From Planctomyces sp. (GTDB lineage: Bacteria; Planctomycetota; Planctomycetia; Planctomycetales; Planctomycetaceae), in NCBI GenBank assembly GCA_016795105.1, contig JAEUIH010000014.1:23558-87557 (forward strand): DNA of 64,000 bases, given 5' to 3'. Positions 35,318 to 41,537 of this stretch are shown piece by piece (position 1 is the first letter of the stretch; every line of letters starts with the position of its first letter). Made by a program: the position numbers and the translations under genes. Under the pieces are notes generated by a model that saw only the letters and a program-made list of their open reading frames with translations, searched no databases and was not told the DNA's origin.

Positions 35318-36958
35318 TCAAGGGCAGGGTGAATCCGTGTGAACTGTGATGTGAGATCTTTGTGCTTCGAGCATCTCAGGGTAGTCGGTTCGTGCGTGAA
35401 CGCCTCGACTTTCACGTCGTTCCTGTGCTGCGGCCGTCATGATCCGGCTGACGAGCATCATGTTTTGAAGTTCCCAGCCAGCGGGCTCGTTCAGATCTCT
35501 GCGGCAGACGTAGTTCGCCCAGAAATCCAGCTGTTGCCTGGCCGCCAGGAGATCCACTTCATTTCGGGTGATGCCAACACTGCGCCACATCAGACTGCGG
35601 AGGGAATTTCGGATATCGGCGAGGTCAAGAGCTTCGTCATCGTGGCCAGGTCGTCTGTCAGAAGAGTTTGAGAGTCTGGGAGCTGTAAACTGATCTGGCA
35701 TTTCGCGAGCGGCGGCGGAAGCGTTCACTCCGCAGCGAAGGCCAAAGACGACGCCTTCCAGCAGGCTATTGCTGGCGAGCCGATTTGCACCATGAAGACC
35801 GGTTGAGGTAACTTCGCCGGCTGCCCAGAGACCGGGGAGTGACGTCTGTCCGGAGAGGTCGGTCGTGACACCACCGATCATGTAATGTGCACCCGGACGT
35901 ACCGGGACTCGATCGCTGGTCATATCGAGTCCAAAGTCAGAGCAGACTTTCCGGATATGAGGAAACCGCTTCTTTACATGTTCCGGGTTCAGGTGAGACA
36001 GATCGAGATAGACGCAGGGGTGAGATGTGCGGGCCATTTGTCGAGTGATTGCCTGACTGACGACATCTCGGGGGGCAAGTTCCCCGGCATCATTGTAGTC
36101 GAACATAAATCGATGACCGCTGCTGTCCACAAGATGAGCACCTTCACCGCGGACGGCTTCGCTGATGAGATATCTGGAGCTGCCTGCGATGTAGAGAACG
36201 GTGGGATGAAACTGCATGAACTCCATATCACGCAATTCGCAGCCAGCGCGAAATGCAATGGCATGGCCATCGGCGGTGGCAATCTGAGGATTTGTTGTTT
36301 CACGGTAGATTGCGCCGGCCCCGCCGGTGCAGAGGATCGTTTGCTTGGCCCAGACAAAGGTACGGCCATGATTTGCATTCCAGACCAGGGCTCCTCGGCA
36401 GGCACCGTCACATGTCAGCAGATCGATTGTAAAGGTACGGGGCCAGAGATCGATATGTTCTGCTTCGTGAGCAGTGCGATTCATTGCTCGCATGACTTCC
36501 TGCCCCGTCGCATCGCCGAGTGCATGAGCGACGCGTGCGTGGCTGTGTCCGCCTTCAAGAGTCAGAGCAATCTGGCCATCGACTTCGTCAAACTCAGCTC
36601 CGTACGAAACGAGTTCGCGAATTCGTTCAGGCGCTTCTTTAACGACGAGGTCCACAACTTCCTGGTGGCACAGTCCTTTACCGGCAGCAAGAGTGTCATT
36701 GACGTGATTCGCAAAATCATCAAGAGGATCAAGCACACCGGCAATCCCACCCTGAGCATAGGCGCTGTTGGAATGCTGGAATGAATCTTTAGTCACGACA
36801 ACTGTTCGAAGGGAAGGGTCGACTGCGAGAGCTGCCCGGATCCCTGCAATCCCTCCACCAATGATCAGGACATCCGTGAATAAATGCGGGACTCGTTTGG
36901 GATCGAACGGAACGAGGTATCTGCGAAGGGAGGGGACAGTGATGGATCGGGACTTCAT
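35318..36958 (-). CDS. nadB: L-aspartate oxidase NadB
   Basis: A 546-residue flavoprotein that oxidises L-aspartate to iminoaspartate in de novo NAD synthesis. The FAD dinucleotide motif is GGGIAGIRAAL, followed by SAYAQGGIAGVLD and LEGGHSHARVAHALGDATG, which mark NadB and the succinate-dehydrogenase family. MQFHPTVLY, EAVRGEGAHLVD and ATGLHGANRLASNSLLE-type segments (here STGLHGANRLASNSLLE) complete the core. ATG 36958 is preferred; the 37021 start gives an unsupported 21-residue extension. No nadA or nadC lies nearby. Confidence 0.94.
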   Translation of the reverse strand: MKSRSITVPSLRRYLVPFDPKRVPHLFTDVLIIGGGIAGIRAALAVDPSLRTVVVTKDSFQHSNSAYAQGGIAGVLDPLDDFANHVNDTLAAGKGLCHQEVVDLVVKEAPERIRELVSYGAEFDEVDGQIALTLEGGHSHARVAHALGDATGQEVMRAMNRTAHEAEHIDLWPRTFTIDLLTCDGACRGALVWNANHGRTFVWAKQTILCTGGAGAIYRETTNPQIATADGHAIAFRAGCELRDMEFMQFHPTVLYIAGSSRYLISEAVRGEGAHLVDSSGHRFMFDYNDAGELAPRDVVSQAITRQMARTSHPCVYLDLSHLNPEHVKKRFPHIRKVCSDFGLDMTSDRVPVRPGAHYMIGGVTTDLSGQTSLPGLWAAGEVTSTGLHGANRLASNSLLEGVVFGLRCGVNASAAAREMPDQFTAPRLSNSSDRRPGHDDEALDLADIRNSLRSLMWRSVGITRNEVDLLAARQQLDFWANYVCRRDLNEPAGWELQNMMLVSRIMTAAAQERRESRGVHARTDYPEMLEAQRSHITVHTDSPCP

Positions 36959-37104
36959 AGTGATACCTGAGAAAATCGTTTTGCAGGCTTTGAGGGAACT
37001 GCATGTCAGATGGATGGTCAAATATTGTAGACAGTTCGATCACAGATTCGCTGGCAATCGGCCCCGATAACCCTCGGATCGCCCGAATTGGAGCGAGCCC
37101 GGTC

Positions 37105-37137
37105 TTGTGTCGCGGTTCTACTTGCATATATTATGCA
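37105..37137 (+). promoter_or_regulatory. Candidate promoter overlapped by a palindromic operator
   Basis: TTGTGT (37105-37110) and TATATT (37127-37132) are spaced by 16 bases, a plausible -35/-10 pair. TGCATA-TAT-TATGCA (37123-37137) is a perfect 6-3-6 palindrome covering the -10. It lies ~125 bases upstream of the first gene of the metal-handling cassette. Fur-family regulators (Fur, Zur) bind AT-rich palindromes at such positions; which regulator acts here is unknown. Confidence 0.42.
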
Positions 37138-37261
37138 TAAAGGATCGCGGCCAGGAGTTGCGGAGATGGTCGGTATCTGTTCCCTGTTTTCCACTCAATT
37201 TCGTGTTTTCTGCGACTCGAGGCCACGATCTGAGCGAGACATTCACGAAGGAGGAAGTGTG

Positions 37262-38734
37262 ATGAGGGCAGTGAAAGTAGTCGTGGCGTGTGTTGTGTTG
37301 TTGTTTGCGGATGAGGCCTGCAGCATTGCAGCGAATCAGCAGTCAACTCGCCCCGTTCAGTTCTCGCGCCCAGCACAAGCAGCGCGCCCGGCGCAAGCTT
37401 CGCGCCCGGCGCAAGCTTCGCGCCCGGCACAGCCAGCGCGGCGGATCACTCGACTGTTCTGGCAGGACCGCAGCGATGACTCGTTGAAGTGGTCGGAGGT
37501 GTATTCCGGTGAGCCGTGGAAACTCAAGCCGGGGGTTGGTGTCGTGAGTGGCTTTCCGAAGCTGGACTCAGAGAAGCAGGACCTTGTGCAGATGGAGTAT
37601 TCTGACGGGATCGTGCTGGTAGGGGTTCGAGACCAGGATGGAGGGAAGATTCAGAGTGGCTGGATCGCAGTTGACACAGGAGTCCGCGCGGTTTCTCACG
37701 GAAATCACTTTGATTGGAAGTACCAGCAGAATCCGGTTGTGAAGCAGTCTGTTCTGAATACGGAGCAGGGAAACCCGGCGCACGTTAATTTGTATGACGG
37801 TGGATTCTTTATCGCGAATGATTCGAAGAATGGATTCACATGGATATCGCCGGCAGACTTGTTGCGGCCTGCGAAGGCCAACGTATTGCCGGGTCGATTT
37901 TTTTCTGGTGGTGGAAGCCACATCACGATGGCGGCGGTTGGCAATGCAGTTTGCTATTCAACATGGATCGATGGAGGAGGTCCGAACAGGGGGCGGGTTG
38001 ATGTGGTGAATCTGCGGAAGAGTCCTTCGAGTGAGCCGGCTTATTCGCTCACACTGCCGACTGGTGTGATTCACGGAGCCACAACAAACTCGGGCAAAGT
38101 GTTTTTTGCGCCTCAGGATGGAGTGTGTTGGGTTGAAGCAGACCTGAATGTGCAGAAGTCGGCGGACAAAGTGGTTGTGAACCATATTTCTCTGGGTACT
38201 GATGAAGAGGGCAAGGAGCCGCTGAGAACCGGCGCGTTCGTTAATCACCGCAACTGGGTATTGTTTACGACTGGTCAGGCTGAGACTTCATCGTTGTGTC
38301 TTTTGGACGCAAAGTCGAGTGCACCGAAATTGGTGAAAGTGCCCATCGATGTTCGCGATGGTCTGTCTCTGGTGACTCCCGAGGCAGTGCTTGCTGCTGG
38401 TGGAAAGCGATATGCGTTTGTTTTTGAAGATCGAAGCGAAGGTGACGTTCAGGAAGAACTGAATGTCATTGATCTGGATCCTAATGGAGATCGGAATTTT
38501 GCGGATGCCACAGTTGTGAAGACGATTGGGGTTGGGGCGAGCCGCGTGGAGGGGCATTACGGCCATCATTCGATCAGTTTTGATGGTGACCACAAGTTCG
38601 GGTTCATCTCAAATCCAGGCGACGGTACGATCTGGGTTCTGTCTCTGGCGGATTTGGAAGTGAAGGGAAAGCTTGAAACTGGAGGTACACCGGGGGCTCT
38701 GATCGCTGTTGGTGCTGCTGAGCATCATCACTAA
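37262..38734 (+). CDS. Secreted protein of unknown function, propeller-like
   Basis: A 490-residue protein not recognised as a named family. A signal peptide (VVVACVVLLFADEACS) is followed by a low-complexity linker of repeated RPAQAS units (~36-60), then ~430 residues of repeated beta-rich segments (DGIVLVGVRDQDGGKIQSGW, GHYGHHSISFDGDHKFGF, DGTIWVLSLADLEVKGKL) that suggest a beta-propeller. It ends AAEHHH. ATG 37262 has AAGGAGGAA upstream and puts the signal at the N-terminus; the frame could otherwise start at 37088. As first gene of the cassette with metal-ligand-rich lipoproteins and a COG0523 GTPase, it may work at the cell surface in metal handling; that is inference. Confidence 0.75.
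   Translation: MRAVKVVVACVVLLFADEACSIAANQQSTRPVQFSRPAQAARPAQASRPAQASRPAQPARRITRLFWQDRSDDSLKWSEVYSGEPWKLKPGVGVVSGFPKLDSEKQDLVQMEYSDGIVLVGVRDQDGGKIQSGWIAVDTGVRAVSHGNHFDWKYQQNPVVKQSVLNTEQGNPAHVNLYDGGFFIANDSKNGFTWISPADLLRPAKANVLPGRFFSGGGSHITMAAVGNAVCYSTWIDGGGPNRGRVDVVNLRKSPSSEPAYSLTLPTGVIHGATTNSGKVFFAPQDGVCWVEADLNVQKSADKVVVNHISLGTDEEGKEPLRTGAFVNHRNWVLFTTGQAETSSLCLLDAKSSAPKLVKVPIDVRDGLSLVTPEAVLAAGGKRYAFVFEDRSEGDVQEELNVIDLDPNGDRNFADATVVKTIGVGASRVEGHYGHHSISFDGDHKFGFISNPGDGTIWVLSLADLEVKGKLETGGTPGALIAVGAAEHHH
37365..37436 (+). repeat. 18-bp tandem repeat coding RPAQAS units
   Basis: Four 18-base units of the form CGCGCCCGGCGCAAGCTT, two of them identical (37383-37418), inside the linker of the 37262 gene. 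They code for repeated RPAQAS hexapeptides and could change copy number by slippage. Confidence 0.8.
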
Positions 38735-39056
38735 ATCACTAAGGGGGGGCTGGTGTTTCCTGCGATCTGGTGCGAATTGAGTGGATAGTTGTGGGTTTGG
38801 GAGACGGGAGCGGAATGTGGACGGGCAGGAATGCGCGTCGTGCAGTGGATGTGGACGGGCAGGAATGCCCGTGGTGCAGTGAATGTGGACGGGCAGGAAT
38901 GCCCATCCTACTTATTGGATTTTGGGGTTCTGATGAGAAAACTGAGGGGAAGTCCTGGTTAGGGGGATGTCCGCGGACGTAAAAACGGTAAGATTCAGTG
39001 GTGAGTTGAGCACTGTTTTCTCTCGGAAAGTACCGAAATATAAGGGATGTGGTGAA
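38735..39056. other. Intergenic region with short tandem repeats
   Basis: 322 bases between the first and second genes of the metal cassette. It holds the three-unit 34-base repeat at 38815-38912. No clear terminator or promoter was identified, so it is unclear whether the second gene starts its own transcript. Confidence 0.5.
38815..38912. repeat. 34-bp tandem repeat, three units
   Basis: Units begin at 38815, 38849 and 38883 with ATGTGGACGGGCAGGAATGC, exactly 34 bases apart; the last is cut short. Each contains the small palindrome GGGCA-GGAA-TGCCC (the first unit has TGCGC). The pattern fits a dispersed intergenic repeat family rather than coding sequence. Confidence 0.8.
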
Positions 39057-39668
39057 ATGAATCGGAAGTCGTTCTGGCAGTTTGCGATTGTCATGTCAGC
39101 GTTGGTGGTTGTTTGGGGCTGTGATGGTGGAAGTGCCACCACAAAGACTGGCGATGACGCTGGCCATGGGGATCACGATGATCATGAAGGTCATGCTCAT
39201 GATCATGCCGAAGATGAGCAGCATCCGGAAACGCTGGCTGAAGCGGCGTCACAACTGGCAGCCATGCGCAACACGATTCGGGATGCGTTTGCGAAGAATG
39301 ATCCTGATACGGCACATGATCCGCTCCACGAAGTCGGCCACGTTCTGGAGGAAGTGCCAGCCCTTGCAGACAAGTCCAGTTTGAGTGATGAGTCCAGGAC
39401 CGCCGTTAAGGCTGCGGCTGAAACGCTGATGACAGCGTTTGGCGCCGTTGATAAGACGATGCACGGTGGCGAGGGGTCAACTTATGCAGAGGAATCTGCA
39501 AAGATTGATGCAGCTCTAAAGGTCATTGAAGATGCCGTCGCTGGTGCAGCAGCACCGACTGGCGAAGCGGCACCTGCTGGCGAGGCAGCACCTGCTGGTG
39601 AAGCGGCACCTGCTGGTGAAACGGCACCTGCTGGCGAGGCAGCACCTGCTGGCGAGACGAAAGAGTGA
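39057..39668 (+). CDS. Histidine-rich lipoprotein
   Basis: A 203-residue putative lipoprotein. The signal (FAIVMSALVVVWGC) has a weak lipobox ending at Cys22. Residues 37-56 are an acidic histidine cluster (GHGDHDDHEGHAHDHAEDEQ) of the kind that binds Zn, Ni or Cu. A ~100-residue helical domain follows (ETLAEAASQLAAMRNTIRDA, MTAFGAVDKTMHG), possibly a four-helix bundle with conserved-looking His in HDPLHEVGHVLEEV. The C-terminus is six APAGEA-type repeats. ATG 39057 puts the signal first; the longer frame at 38967 does not. It precedes a second lipoprotein and a COG0523 GTPase, so a metal-buffer role in the envelope is likely. Confidence 0.8.
   Translation: MNRKSFWQFAIVMSALVVVWGCDGGSATTKTGDDAGHGDHDDHEGHAHDHAEDEQHPETLAEAASQLAAMRNTIRDAFAKNDPDTAHDPLHEVGHVLEEVPALADKSSLSDESRTAVKAAAETLMTAFGAVDKTMHGGEGSTYAEESAKIDAALKVIEDAVAGAAAPTGEAAPAGEAAPAGEAAPAGETAPAGEAAPAGETKE
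39547..39655 (+). repeat. 18-bp tandem repeat coding APAGEA units
   Basis: Six 18-base units like GCACCTGCTGGCGAGGCA, with third-position changes, code the C-terminal APAGEA repeat of the His-rich lipoprotein. The unit length equals that of the repeat in the 37262 gene, but the sequence differs. Confidence 0.8.
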
Positions 39669-39710
39669 ATTCAGGGCACTGATTCAGTGAGTAATTCCGG
39701 GGTTAAGATC

Positions 39711-40256
39711 ATGCAGAGCCGATTGGGTGGATTAAGAGCAGCGACGGTTGTTGGCATGTTTGCGGCAACAGGATTGTTGACCCTGGCGATCTCGGGCTGC
39801 GGAGAATCTGTCAGCCCGGAGATTCTTGCTCTCCGGACGGCTCATCTGTTGGTGGAAGTACCAGCAGGTGAGCAGACGATTGCCAAAGTTCGGGAGCAAT
39901 TGAAATCGGGAGAAGCGACTGCTGAATCAGAGTTTGTGATTAAGGGGCGTATCAATGCGGGAGATATGCCGCCATGGGGGACCGGGACCGCGTCTTTCGT
40001 GGTGACGGAAGCGATTGGGCACGACGGCGATGAGGAGCATGATCCACATAAGTGCCCATTTTGCAGTCGTGACATTCAAAATAACATTGCTCAGGTGCAC
40101 TTTCAGGACGGCGACGGGAAGCTGATTCAGATTGACTCGCGGGAGTTGTTCGATCTGAAGCAGTTTCAGCTTGTTGTAGTTCGGGGCACTGCGGAAATTG
40201 ACGATTCGGACACATTGGTGATTCACGCGCGGCAAATGCACGTGACGCGAAAGTAA
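39711..40256 (+). CDS. Lipoprotein with His/Cys metal-binding motif
   Basis: A 181-residue lipoprotein: signal FAATGLLTLAISGC with lipobox cysteine 30. The middle has a dense ligand cluster HDGDEEHDPHKCPFC (~104-118: three His, two Cys as CxxC), flanked by beta strands (ESEFVIKGRINAG, AQVHFQDGDGKLIQIDSREL, QFQLVVVRGTAEID) that look like a small OB-type barrel. The cysteine-histidine site could hold zinc. Not recognised as a named family. A GTG at 39687 is an alternative start. The GTPase gene follows after nine bases, so co-transcription is nearly certain. Confidence 0.8.
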   Translation: MQSRLGGLRAATVVGMFAATGLLTLAISGCGESVSPEILALRTAHLLVEVPAGEQTIAKVREQLKSGEATAESEFVIKGRINAGDMPPWGTGTASFVVTEAIGHDGDEEHDPHKCPFCSRDIQNNIAQVHFQDGDGKLIQIDSRELFDLKQFQLVVVRGTAEIDDSDTLVIHARQMHVTRK

Positions 40257-40265
40257 TAACTGTTC

Positions 40266-41537
40266 ATGAAGACTTTGCCCGTTACTGTCTTGTCTGGTTT
40301 TCTCGGCGCCGGCAAGACAACGATGTTGAACCATATTCTGCGAAATCGAGAGGGACTCCGTGTTGCGGTGATCGTGAACGACATGAGTTCCGTGAACATC
40401 GATGCGAAGTTGATCGCAAGCGGAGATGCGGCTTTAAGTCGTTCAGAAGAGACTCTCGTTGAAATGACCAATGGTTGTATCTGCTGTACTCTGCGGGAAG
40501 ACCTGCTCGTCGAAGTCACGAAACTTGCTCGTGAGGGGCGGTTTGACTATTTGCTCATCGAGTCAACGGGGATTGCCGAGCCGCTTCCGATTGCGGAGAC
40601 ATTTTCGTTTGAAGACGAGGAAGGGCGATCACTCAGCGAATTTGCTCGGCTGGATACCCTGGTCACCGTGGTTGACGCTGTCAATTTCCTGAACGACTAT
40701 GAATCGACGGATGAGCTGCATGAACGTGATCTTGGCGCAGATGAGACCGACGATCGCGATTTGTCTCAGTTGCTGGCTGATCAGATTGAATTTGCCAATG
40801 TGATTGTTCTGAACAAAACAGATCTGGTGTCTGAAGATCAGCGGGGCGTTCTGCATGCGATTCTGCAGACAATGAATCCATCTGCCAGAGTGATTGAGTC
40901 TGAATTTGGGAAGGTTTCGCTGAGCGACGTGTTGAACACGGGGCTCTATGAAGAGGAATGGGCGGAATCCTCTGAATCATGGATGTCAGTTCCTCGCGAC
41001 AGTGCCGAAGCTGACTCCCATTCAGAAGCTGACGAGTATGGTATCAGTAGTTTTGTCTACCGTGCTCGTCGACCGTTTCATCCTGAGCGTCTGTATGACT
41101 TCTGGGTTTCGGGTGAATTAACTGGCGGAATACTTCGATCAAAAGGTTACATCTGGCTTGCAACGCGTCCGGAGTTCGCGGGAGTCTGGTCGCAGGCGGG
41201 TTCAGTTTTGAGTGCACAGCCGGGGGGATACTGGTGGGCCGAGAGTCCTCGAGAAGAGTGGCCTGTTGATGACCCGGAGATGATGTCGGACATTGAATCG
41301 GTATGGGACGAAGCCACCGGTGATCGGCGTCAGGAGCTGGTCGTGATCGGACAGGACCTGGATCGTGCGGAGCTGGAAAGAGCTCTCGATGAATGTCTGT
41401 TGACAGATGCAGAATTCGCTCTTGGCGAGGAGCGGTGGCTGGAATTCAGCGACCCGTTTTCATCATGGGACGTTTCTGAAGTTCACGATCATGATCACGA
41501 TAGTGATGGAAACTGTTTGCCGGACCATCCACGCTAG
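40266..41537 (+). CDS. COG0523 (CobW/ZNG1-type) GTPase metal chaperone
   Basis: A 423-residue G3E-family GTPase. Walker A is [15 protein letters not shown] (~11-25), the metal-binding CxCC is [11 protein letters not shown] (~69-79), [17 protein letters not shown] is Walker B/switch, and [12 protein letters not shown] is the guanine-specificity motif. A CobW C-terminal domain (~260-400) ends in a ligand-rich tail, [19 protein letters not shown]0523 proteins load or deliver metals such as Zn, Co or Ni to client enzymes in the cytosol. With no cobalamin genes nearby and two metal-ligand lipoproteins upstream, zinc is the likeliest cargo, by inference. Confidence 0.93.

Follow-up and report, generated by a model that had tools for sequence, protein, structure and literature searches.

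A probable planctomycete zinc-starvation cassette with an AztD-like propeller, a ZigA-like GTPase and two unnamed lipoprotein families

In the AztABCD systems, the periplasmic zinc chaperone AztD binds zinc at two sites: one in its pore, formed by His124, His167 and His218 (Paracoccus denitrificans numbering), and one at its edge, formed by His99, His102, Asp104 and the C-terminal His408 (PMC6689063). The binding protein AztC needs three histidines in its D-loop, which projects into AztD (PMC7463823). Neighbourhoods of AztD with zinc ATP-binding cassette (ABC), Fur-family and CobW/COG0523 genes have been published (PMC6689063), and the GTPase ZigA is Zur-controlled and has a role in zinc scarcity (PMC11834433). 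Here, we analyse four genes and their surroundings in a stretch of 64,000 nucleotides from Planctomyces sp. (GCA_016795105.1, contig JAEUIH010000014.1, positions 23,558 to 87,557), hereafter the window, which is part of contig C55 of an 8.9-Mb genome.

Direct reading of the window sequence revealed all the features that an earlier note had described: four genes on the same strand, metal-binding motifs in their products, a gap of 9 bases between genes 3 and 4, a palindrome before gene 1 and a repeat-bearing gap of 322 bases between genes 1 and 2. Taken together, sequence and predicted structures suggest a planctomycete zinc-starvation cassette that serves an AztABC-like importer from another part of the genome, a reading that we regard as likely; the importer served is probably the one on contig C122, outside the window. 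The note had called the cassette undescribed, which goes too far, since the association of AztD with COG0523, Fur and zinc ABC genes is already published for AztD generally (PMC6689063). In one limited literature collection, we found no account of such a cassette among papers on planctomycete zinc and on the Zur motif or regulon, and no paper joining AztD and planctomycetes.

Gene 1 (37262-38734, plus strand) encodes a putatively secreted AztD-like beta-propeller of 490 amino acids (P0004). Its open reading frame (ORF) opens with a TTG at 37088, and the ATG at 37262 is the likely start because of AAGGAGGAAG upstream and the signal-peptide-like N-terminus. Its product had been counted among three unrecognised proteins; however, a family profile combined with a structure match makes it recognisable as AztD-like. 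The profile matched AztD 6ck1 in the PDB (E 6.2e-6 and 4.4e-7 in two runs) as well as entry 6cmk (E 0.0051 and 0.0014); single-sequence PDB searches returned nothing usable. Of 16 family members, taken from 40 gene-1 sequences known at that stage, 11 matched the NCBIfam AztD model, P0004 itself not being among them, with a best value of 1.6e-7. The AlphaFold model of gene 1 (predicted local distance difference test, pLDDT, 89.4; predicted template-modelling score, pTM, 0.86) aligned with the AztD crystals at Z scores of 33.8, 32.5 and 32.1, and NirF came next with 27.8; on 6ck1_D the root-mean-square deviation was 3.2 over 362 residues (Z 33.8). With the same model, the top nine rows of a Foldseek search were all AztD chains (E 7.6e-16 to 6.7e-13) and the next row stood at 1.4e-8. 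Gene 1 is thus predicted to have the AztD-type beta-propeller fold, which in AztD is eight-bladed.

The zinc ligands of AztD could be traced in the gene 1 protein. In the printed profile alignments, His174 falls on AztD His124 and His220 on His167, whereas His146, His149 and position 151 (His146, His149 and Asp151 are encoded at 37697-37714) fall on His99, His102 and Asp104. The equivalence of His271 with AztD His218 is suggested by spacing and invariance rather than by an alignment. Conservation was examined in 56 sequences, namely P0004 and 55 of the 59 loci found in named contigs (L232, L239, L257 and L266 were left out). His146, His149, His174, His220 and His271 are invariant (56/56); position 151 is a histidine in 45 sequences and an aspartate in 11, as in the window. 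His432 and His436 are invariant too and 55 of the 56 sequences have His435; none of these three was assigned a counterpart in AztD. The protein ends in EHHH (38720-38731), a histidine occurs among the last three residues of 26 of the 56 sequences, and the model aligns through residue 490 onto residue 408 of 6ck1. The EHHH tail thus plausibly supplies the fourth ligand of site 2. Profile and model together identify gene 1 as a distant homologue of AztD, the periplasmic zinc chaperone.

Gene 4 (40266-41537, plus strand; P0003, 423 amino acids) is by its domains a COG0523 GTPase: it matches the Pfam families cobW (4.9e-57) and CobW_C (1.5e-27) and carries NGCICC, with CxCC encoded at 40476-40487, followed by a His/Asp tail from about 41484. 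The NCBIfam ZigA model (NF038288) covers it over 389 of 390 positions with 593.4 bits for a cut-off of 600, and a homologue of the same genus, in locus L210, passes that model with 623.8 bits. We therefore class gene 4 as ZigA-like. Elsewhere, ZigA genes were seen in two further settings: near a MoxR-type ATPase (by eye), a second family of His lipoproteins and an ArsP_1-like permease (L164, L166, L182, L160 and L154), and with a FAD-type oxidoreductase (cluster c16, by eye) and a protein of about 200 amino acids (cluster c9) without a Pfam match (L176, L180, L155, L156 and L167).

Genes 2 and 3 represent unnamed families whose members travel together. Gene 2 (39057-39668, plus strand; P0001, 203 amino acids) starts at ATG 39057, contains HGDHDDHEGHAHDHAEDEQH and encodes a putative lipoprotein with a His/Asp/Glu cluster (about 39165-39224), after which come a domain whose histidines are of LHEVGH type and a tail with a GEAAPA repeat. 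Its maximum of 7 histidines per 25 residues is the highest among 64 window ORFs of at least 150 amino acids, some of which are not genes; the next value is 6. Gene 3 (39711-40256, plus strand; P0002, 181 amino acids) contains HDGDEEHDPHKCPFC and encodes a CPFC-type putative lipoprotein, whose model (pLDDT 82.2) has an oligonucleotide/oligosaccharide-binding (OB) fold without a specific fold partner. Both were classed as lipoproteins from lipobox-like sequences seen by eye, the lipobox of gene 2, VWGC, being atypical. Neither reached the cut-off of a Pfam or NCBIfam family, nor did 22 gene-3 relatives (of 49 entries) reach that of a Pfam family. At E up to 1, the Pfam matches listed for genes 2 and 3 included neither DUF2796 (ZrgA/PA4063) nor DUF3299 (PA4066), and the same holds for those listed for the 22 relatives at E up to 0.1. 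No support was found for gene 3 being a ZepA or a DUF3299 protein.

Relatives of gene 2 occur in 27 of 148 genomes of the class, and 28 of their 31 places were fetched (G341:C136, G300:C75 and G299:C12 were left out); 16 of these 28 have a same-strand gene-3 relative no more than 400 bp away, and four have ZigA within 6 kb. In gene 3, His110 and the motif Cys115-Pro-Phe-Cys118 (40038-40064) are invariant in 12 of 12 aligned sequences, that is P0002 and 11 of 12 relatives (L213 was left out). Gene-3 relatives were found in 33 of 294 genomes of the phylum and in two contexts, which differ in motif. CPFC is present in 16 of the 49 entries, all beside a gene-2 relative, and a seventeenth entry beside gene 2 is a fragment with neither motif. 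PWDxCC is carried by 29 of the 30 FtsX-adjacent entries and by 2 more outside that context; two entries have neither CPFC nor PWDxCC, the fragment beside gene 2 and one beside FtsX. Such a swap suggests one OB lipoprotein adapted to two metal or redox jobs. The genome studied here has a single gene-3 paralogue, beside FtsX, ABC and HlyD-type genes (families tested on the equivalent locus L057). This locus (L059, contig C349) and about 30 others form operons of FtsX, PWDxCC OB lipoprotein, HlyD-type, ABC ATPase and FtsX genes, which vary in gene order and are widespread in the phylum. These paralogues with FtsX/ABC genes may resemble the PA4063-PA4066 operon.

The earlier note had proposed a search of related genomes for a conserved neighbourhood, and the result of that search suggests that the four genes indeed belong together as a conserved cassette. 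Gene-1 relatives are present in 43 of the 148 class genomes and at 59 loci of named contigs; the two surveys overlap (L213/G401, L216/G266, L210/G423), and their counts are not additive. Many loci end at contig edges, which makes the following counts lower bounds. Genes 2 and 3 lie near gene 1 at 12 of the 59 loci (L210-L218, L223, L224 and L228) and ZigA at 10 (L210, L212, L215, L221, L223, L224, L232, L233, where it is on the other strand, L260 and L268); all four genes occur at five, four of which have the order of the window (L212, L215, L223 and L224). Blastopirellula marina DSM 3645 and Rhodopirellula rubra are among the carriers of gene 1, and no genes 2-4 were seen next to it in either. 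Elsewhere, the pair of genes 2 and 3 adjoins ZigA in G024 and G319, as it does in G399, where a Fur-family gene intervenes. Fur-family genes belonging to a single cluster occur near gene 2 in G383 and G399, at distances of 138 and 700 bp, and near ZigA in G340, G379, G395 and G399. MerC and NicO-like genes are among the neighbours elsewhere. Upstream of gene 1, its usual partners encode a pseudopilin (DUF1559), a PQQ-type protein and a small lipoprotein.

A candidate Zur-type operator, ACTTGCATATATTATGCATAA, lies at 37120-37140, some 120 bp ahead of the gene 1 start codon ATG, and was picked out both by profile score and by the rarity of its palindrome. For the latter, TGCATA-TAT-TATGCA at 37123-37137, dinucleotide shuffles give an expectation of 0.02 occurrences per window with at most one mismatch. 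Searching the sequences upstream of the ZigA and gene-2 operons of 53 genomes with a palindrome filter gave the motif TTGCAAT-N3-ATTGCAA, whose seed is present in 16 of the 52 other genomes, against 7 for the best shuffled seed; G137 and G194, which share a seed, belong to one genus. Two other seeds ranked equal or higher (16 and 18 genomes, widths 15 and 19) and are presumed to be conserved starts of the ZigA coding sequence. With the operator profile, 21 of 119 stretches reached at least 14 bits versus 0.1 per shuffled set, the training and test sets overlapping. A refined profile, which includes ten hand-picked gene-1 sites from other genomes, gave the window site 20.1 bits, the best score in the window and the only one of at least 15 bits; null sites of at least 18 bits occur at 0.0005 per kb. 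The motif is also found before ZigA, gene-2 and gene-1 genes in other planctomycetes. With a profile trained without the genome studied here, the region around the gene-1 start outscores 48 or more of 50 shuffles at 14 of the 42 gene-1 loci that have neither gene 2 nor ZigA, six of them at 16 bits or more, but at only one of the 17 loci that have either.

Within the genome itself, similar boxes stand at three promoters: that of gene 1, the divergent promoter of an AztC-like and a COG0523 gene, and that of a DUF1559 gene. The exact palindrome TGCATANNNTATGCA recurs once in the genome, within a DUF1501 gene. The looser pattern WTGCAWNNNNNWTGCAW occurs at 16 places, several high-scoring ones of which are inside genes, so that motif score alone does not identify operators. 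A pattern written from the window and AztC promoter sites, TGCATANNNWWTGCA, hits eight places (the window, the AztC promoter, the DUF1559 promoter, a doubtful ORF on C358 and four inside genes), only the DUF1559 promoter site being independent. This third box precedes a DUF1559 pseudopilin gene (C122:47707), which stands with a small lipoprotein-like gene about 12 kb from the importer of the same contig (L276). Its 22 best matches listed from the fetched loci are DUF1559 genes, every one of them lying upstream of gene 1; that BLAST search covered the ORFs of the fetched loci, which are rich in gene-1 neighbourhoods (the DUF1559 cluster holds 92 ORFs from 52 genomes). Two other ZnuA-like loci (C369 and C11) have no good box, nor does the FtsX/OB locus L059 (11.7 bits). 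The earlier note had taken the palindrome, along with the shared metal ligands, as a hint of a zinc route, and the palindrome, similar to a box at zinc-uptake genes of the same genome, does look like a Zur-type operator.

The importer was found on contig C122, where a ZnuA-family gene (C122:60385) is divergent from a second COG0523 gene. The box in their divergent promoter scores 19.1 bits with the refined profile, the best of that locus. The COG0523 gene is followed on the same strand by a WD-repeat-like gene (by eye), a gene for a 182-amino acid protein and a Fur-family gene, whose product matches PF01475, is by eye of the same kind as the Fur proteins encoded near gene 2 and ZigA elsewhere, and from its genomic place may sense zinc. 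The best NCBIfam models are AztC for the binding protein (249.9 bits for a cut-off of 350; next MntC, 234.8) and AztA (194.6, next 190.2) and AztB (218.3, next 197.8) for its neighbours. AztC is also the best model for a protein on C369 (192.6 bits). The stretch C122:50000-69000 (L272), with its AztABC-like importer, COG0523 and Fur genes and box, is probably the core zinc-uptake locus of the genome.

From these elements the following route can be proposed. When zinc is scarce, a Fur-family, Zur-type repressor would leave a box of TTGCA-N7-TGCAA type and the genes would be expressed. The exported propeller would bind zinc in its central pore through His174, His220 and His271, whose conservation was described above, and at a flexible edge site made of His146, His149, Asp151 and the C-terminal EHHH, and would hand the metal to an AztC-like binding protein. 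The His-rich and CPFC lipoproteins may act as envelope-anchored zinc traps or buffers that pass the metal on to the propeller or the binding protein, which is the weakest step. AztAB would then take zinc in, and the ZigA-type GTPase, judging from work on ZigA in other bacteria, would allot it to cytosolic client enzymes. Zinc, the metal named by the earlier note, is very probably the metal of the cassette, and the route from envelope to cytosol that the note proposed fits. If this reading is right, two unnamed lipoprotein families gain a testable zinc role and the phylum gains a candidate Zur box of that type with its expected regulon.

Several observations weigh against it. As a single sequence, P0004 matches no Pfam or NCBIfam family, only the family profile doing so; gene 4 is 6.6 bits short of the ZigA cut-off; and all three importer subunits on C122 fall under the Azt cut-offs. 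The stretch corresponding to the D-loop of AztC contains, by eye, one histidine in the AztC-like protein of C122 and two in that of C369; having one loop histidine against three in AztC, the C122 protein may not be the acceptor of the zinc carried by gene 1. At 42 of the 59 gene-1 loci there is neither gene 2 nor ZigA, although some fetched stretches are short, and a gene-3 relative is absent at 12 of the 28 gene-2 places. The window site scores 13.7 bits with a profile trained without its own genome, which is the best in 64 kb but lies below the mean null maximum of 14.5 per 64 kb. Among the 17 loci where gene 1 is accompanied by gene 2 or ZigA, just one has the box no more than 350 bp from gene 1. 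The refined profile places a site at gene 1 in L260, one at ZigA in L221 and sites of 20-24 bits 2.5-4.3 kb upstream in L210, L216 and L268, those of L210 and L268 preceding a DUF1559-PQQ run into gene 1. The 12 other loci, including all four with the order of the window, have no site of at least 14 bits on the fetched stretch, and a box common to the whole cassette family is therefore disfavoured.

A more extended arrangement may be considered, in which a dedicated DUF1559 pseudopilin, with the PQQ-type propeller and the small lipoprotein, would expose or carry zinc-binding proteins outside the cell; the AztD-like propeller would take the metal, the paired His-rich and CPFC lipoproteins would pass it through the envelope, and AztABC together with ZigA would supply the cytosolic enzymes, with a single Zur box governing the whole. 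It draws on a contiguous one-strand run in L210, of the same genus, which reads box, small gene, DUF1559, PQQ, lipoprotein, AztD-like gene, ZigA, His lipoprotein and CPFC lipoprotein. We consider this surface apparatus rather unlikely.

The cassette might instead handle an excess of zinc or several metals by storage or efflux, the His-rich lipoprotein being a metal-induced sink. Some weaker gene-2 relatives do adjoin CzcB- and CzcA-like genes (by eye; clusters c12 and c25), a CzcA-like gene is convergent to the CPFC pair in L093, and an ArsP_1 permease weakly similar to SO_0444 copper/zinc efflux proteins stands beside a gene-2-like gene in L210. However, ZigA, AztD and AztABC are uptake or scarcity genes where they have been studied (PMC6689063, PMC11834433), and the box is common to the window and the importer promoter; we regard this reading as improbable.

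We give about as little credence to the idea that only genes 2-4 form a zinc set, gene 1 being a separate transcript whose placement is partly historical and which works with its usual DUF1559 and PQQ partners. Those upstream partners, the small lipoprotein included, speak for it, as does the gap before gene 2 (38735-39056), which contains three copies of a 34-bp repeat (38815-38916). Since the repeat core, GACGGGCAGGAATGCCC, is found 145+175 times in the 8.9-Mb genome, the repeats belong to a dispersed element and are not specific to this locus. On the other side, gene 1 shares strand and neighbourhood with genes 2 and 3 in 12 of the 59 loci, ORF-to-ORF gaps before gene 2 range from overlap to about 490 bp (in L210, ZigA stands between the two), and the box at 37120 is alone in the window in scoring at least 15 bits. 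The dispersed element has an inverted core, GGGCA-ggaa-TGCCC, with 320 exact copies genome-wide, often in tandem at a spacing of 30-70 bp.

Finally, that gene 1 encodes a copper-binding propeller enzyme of the nitrous-oxide-reductase or thiocyanate-dehydrogenase type, its metal site served by genes 2-4, could be argued from its eight invariant or near-invariant histidines, from thiocyanate dehydrogenase and NirN/NirF/cd1 among its weaker fold matches and from one of 16 family members matching clade III NosZ (E 0.16), but AztD stands clearly above those folds (Z 33.8 versus at most 27.8), its zinc ligands are among the conserved residues and the ZigA, Fur and AztABC-like genes point to zinc, so that a copper enzyme is very improbable.

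As to the surroundings of the cassette, a gene for a FAD_binding_2/Succ_DH_flav_C protein (35318-37021), presumably NadB-like, lies upstream of gene 1 in divergent orientation, and the box at 37120 is within their common promoter region. Downstream of gene 4 are PSCyt1/DUF1549/DUF1553 and DUF1501 genes. Consensus scans found neither a terminator-like site in the 322-base gap nor a sigma-70-like promoter match in the region, and Rfam gave no match.

The zinc-starvation cassette proposed here can be set beside four described systems. ZepA of Anabaena is likewise a Zur-linked secreted zinc protein with homologues in the Planctomycetes-Verrucomicrobia-Chlamydiae (PVC) superphylum; COG0523 and ZnuA genes occur around zepA, joined in PVC members by Fur-family genes, and the same paper gives motifs of other groups and a single site from Luteolibacter (PMC10957091). 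By its description, ZepA differs from the cassette proteins in its PEP-CTERM end and H-X(2-9)-H-F/Y-H site, and the products of genes 1-3 have no such end by eye. Histidine-rich periplasmic zinc proteins are also a feature of ZrgA/PA4063-PA4066. With the ZigA/COG0523 protein of Acinetobacter baumannii, gene 4 shares cobW and CobW_C domains, CxCC, a His-rich tail and a full-length match to the ZigA model; it differs by its score just under the cut-off and by being encoded with putative envelope zinc proteins.

The closest parallel is with AztABCD of Paracoccus denitrificans and Citrobacter koseri. Both have a periplasmic beta-propeller bearing two His-rich sites for zinc, propeller and sites being predicted here, an importer of the zinc ABC type in the genome, whose three subunits here best match AztA, AztB and AztC, and nearby Fur-family and COG0523 genes, as in the published AztD neighbourhoods (PMC6689063). 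In contrast, gene 1 is only about 15% identical to AztD and is not called by NCBIfam, one site-2 ligand is a histidine in most of its relatives (aspartate in the window), a C-terminal histidine is found in only 26 of 56, and the family has the additional His432, His435 (55 of 56) and His436. The aztD-like gene of the window also stands apart from aztABC, in the company of ZigA and two lipoproteins. If the proposed reading is right, the AztD class of chaperones reaches the planctomycetes, where it would be detached from its importer and wired to ZigA.

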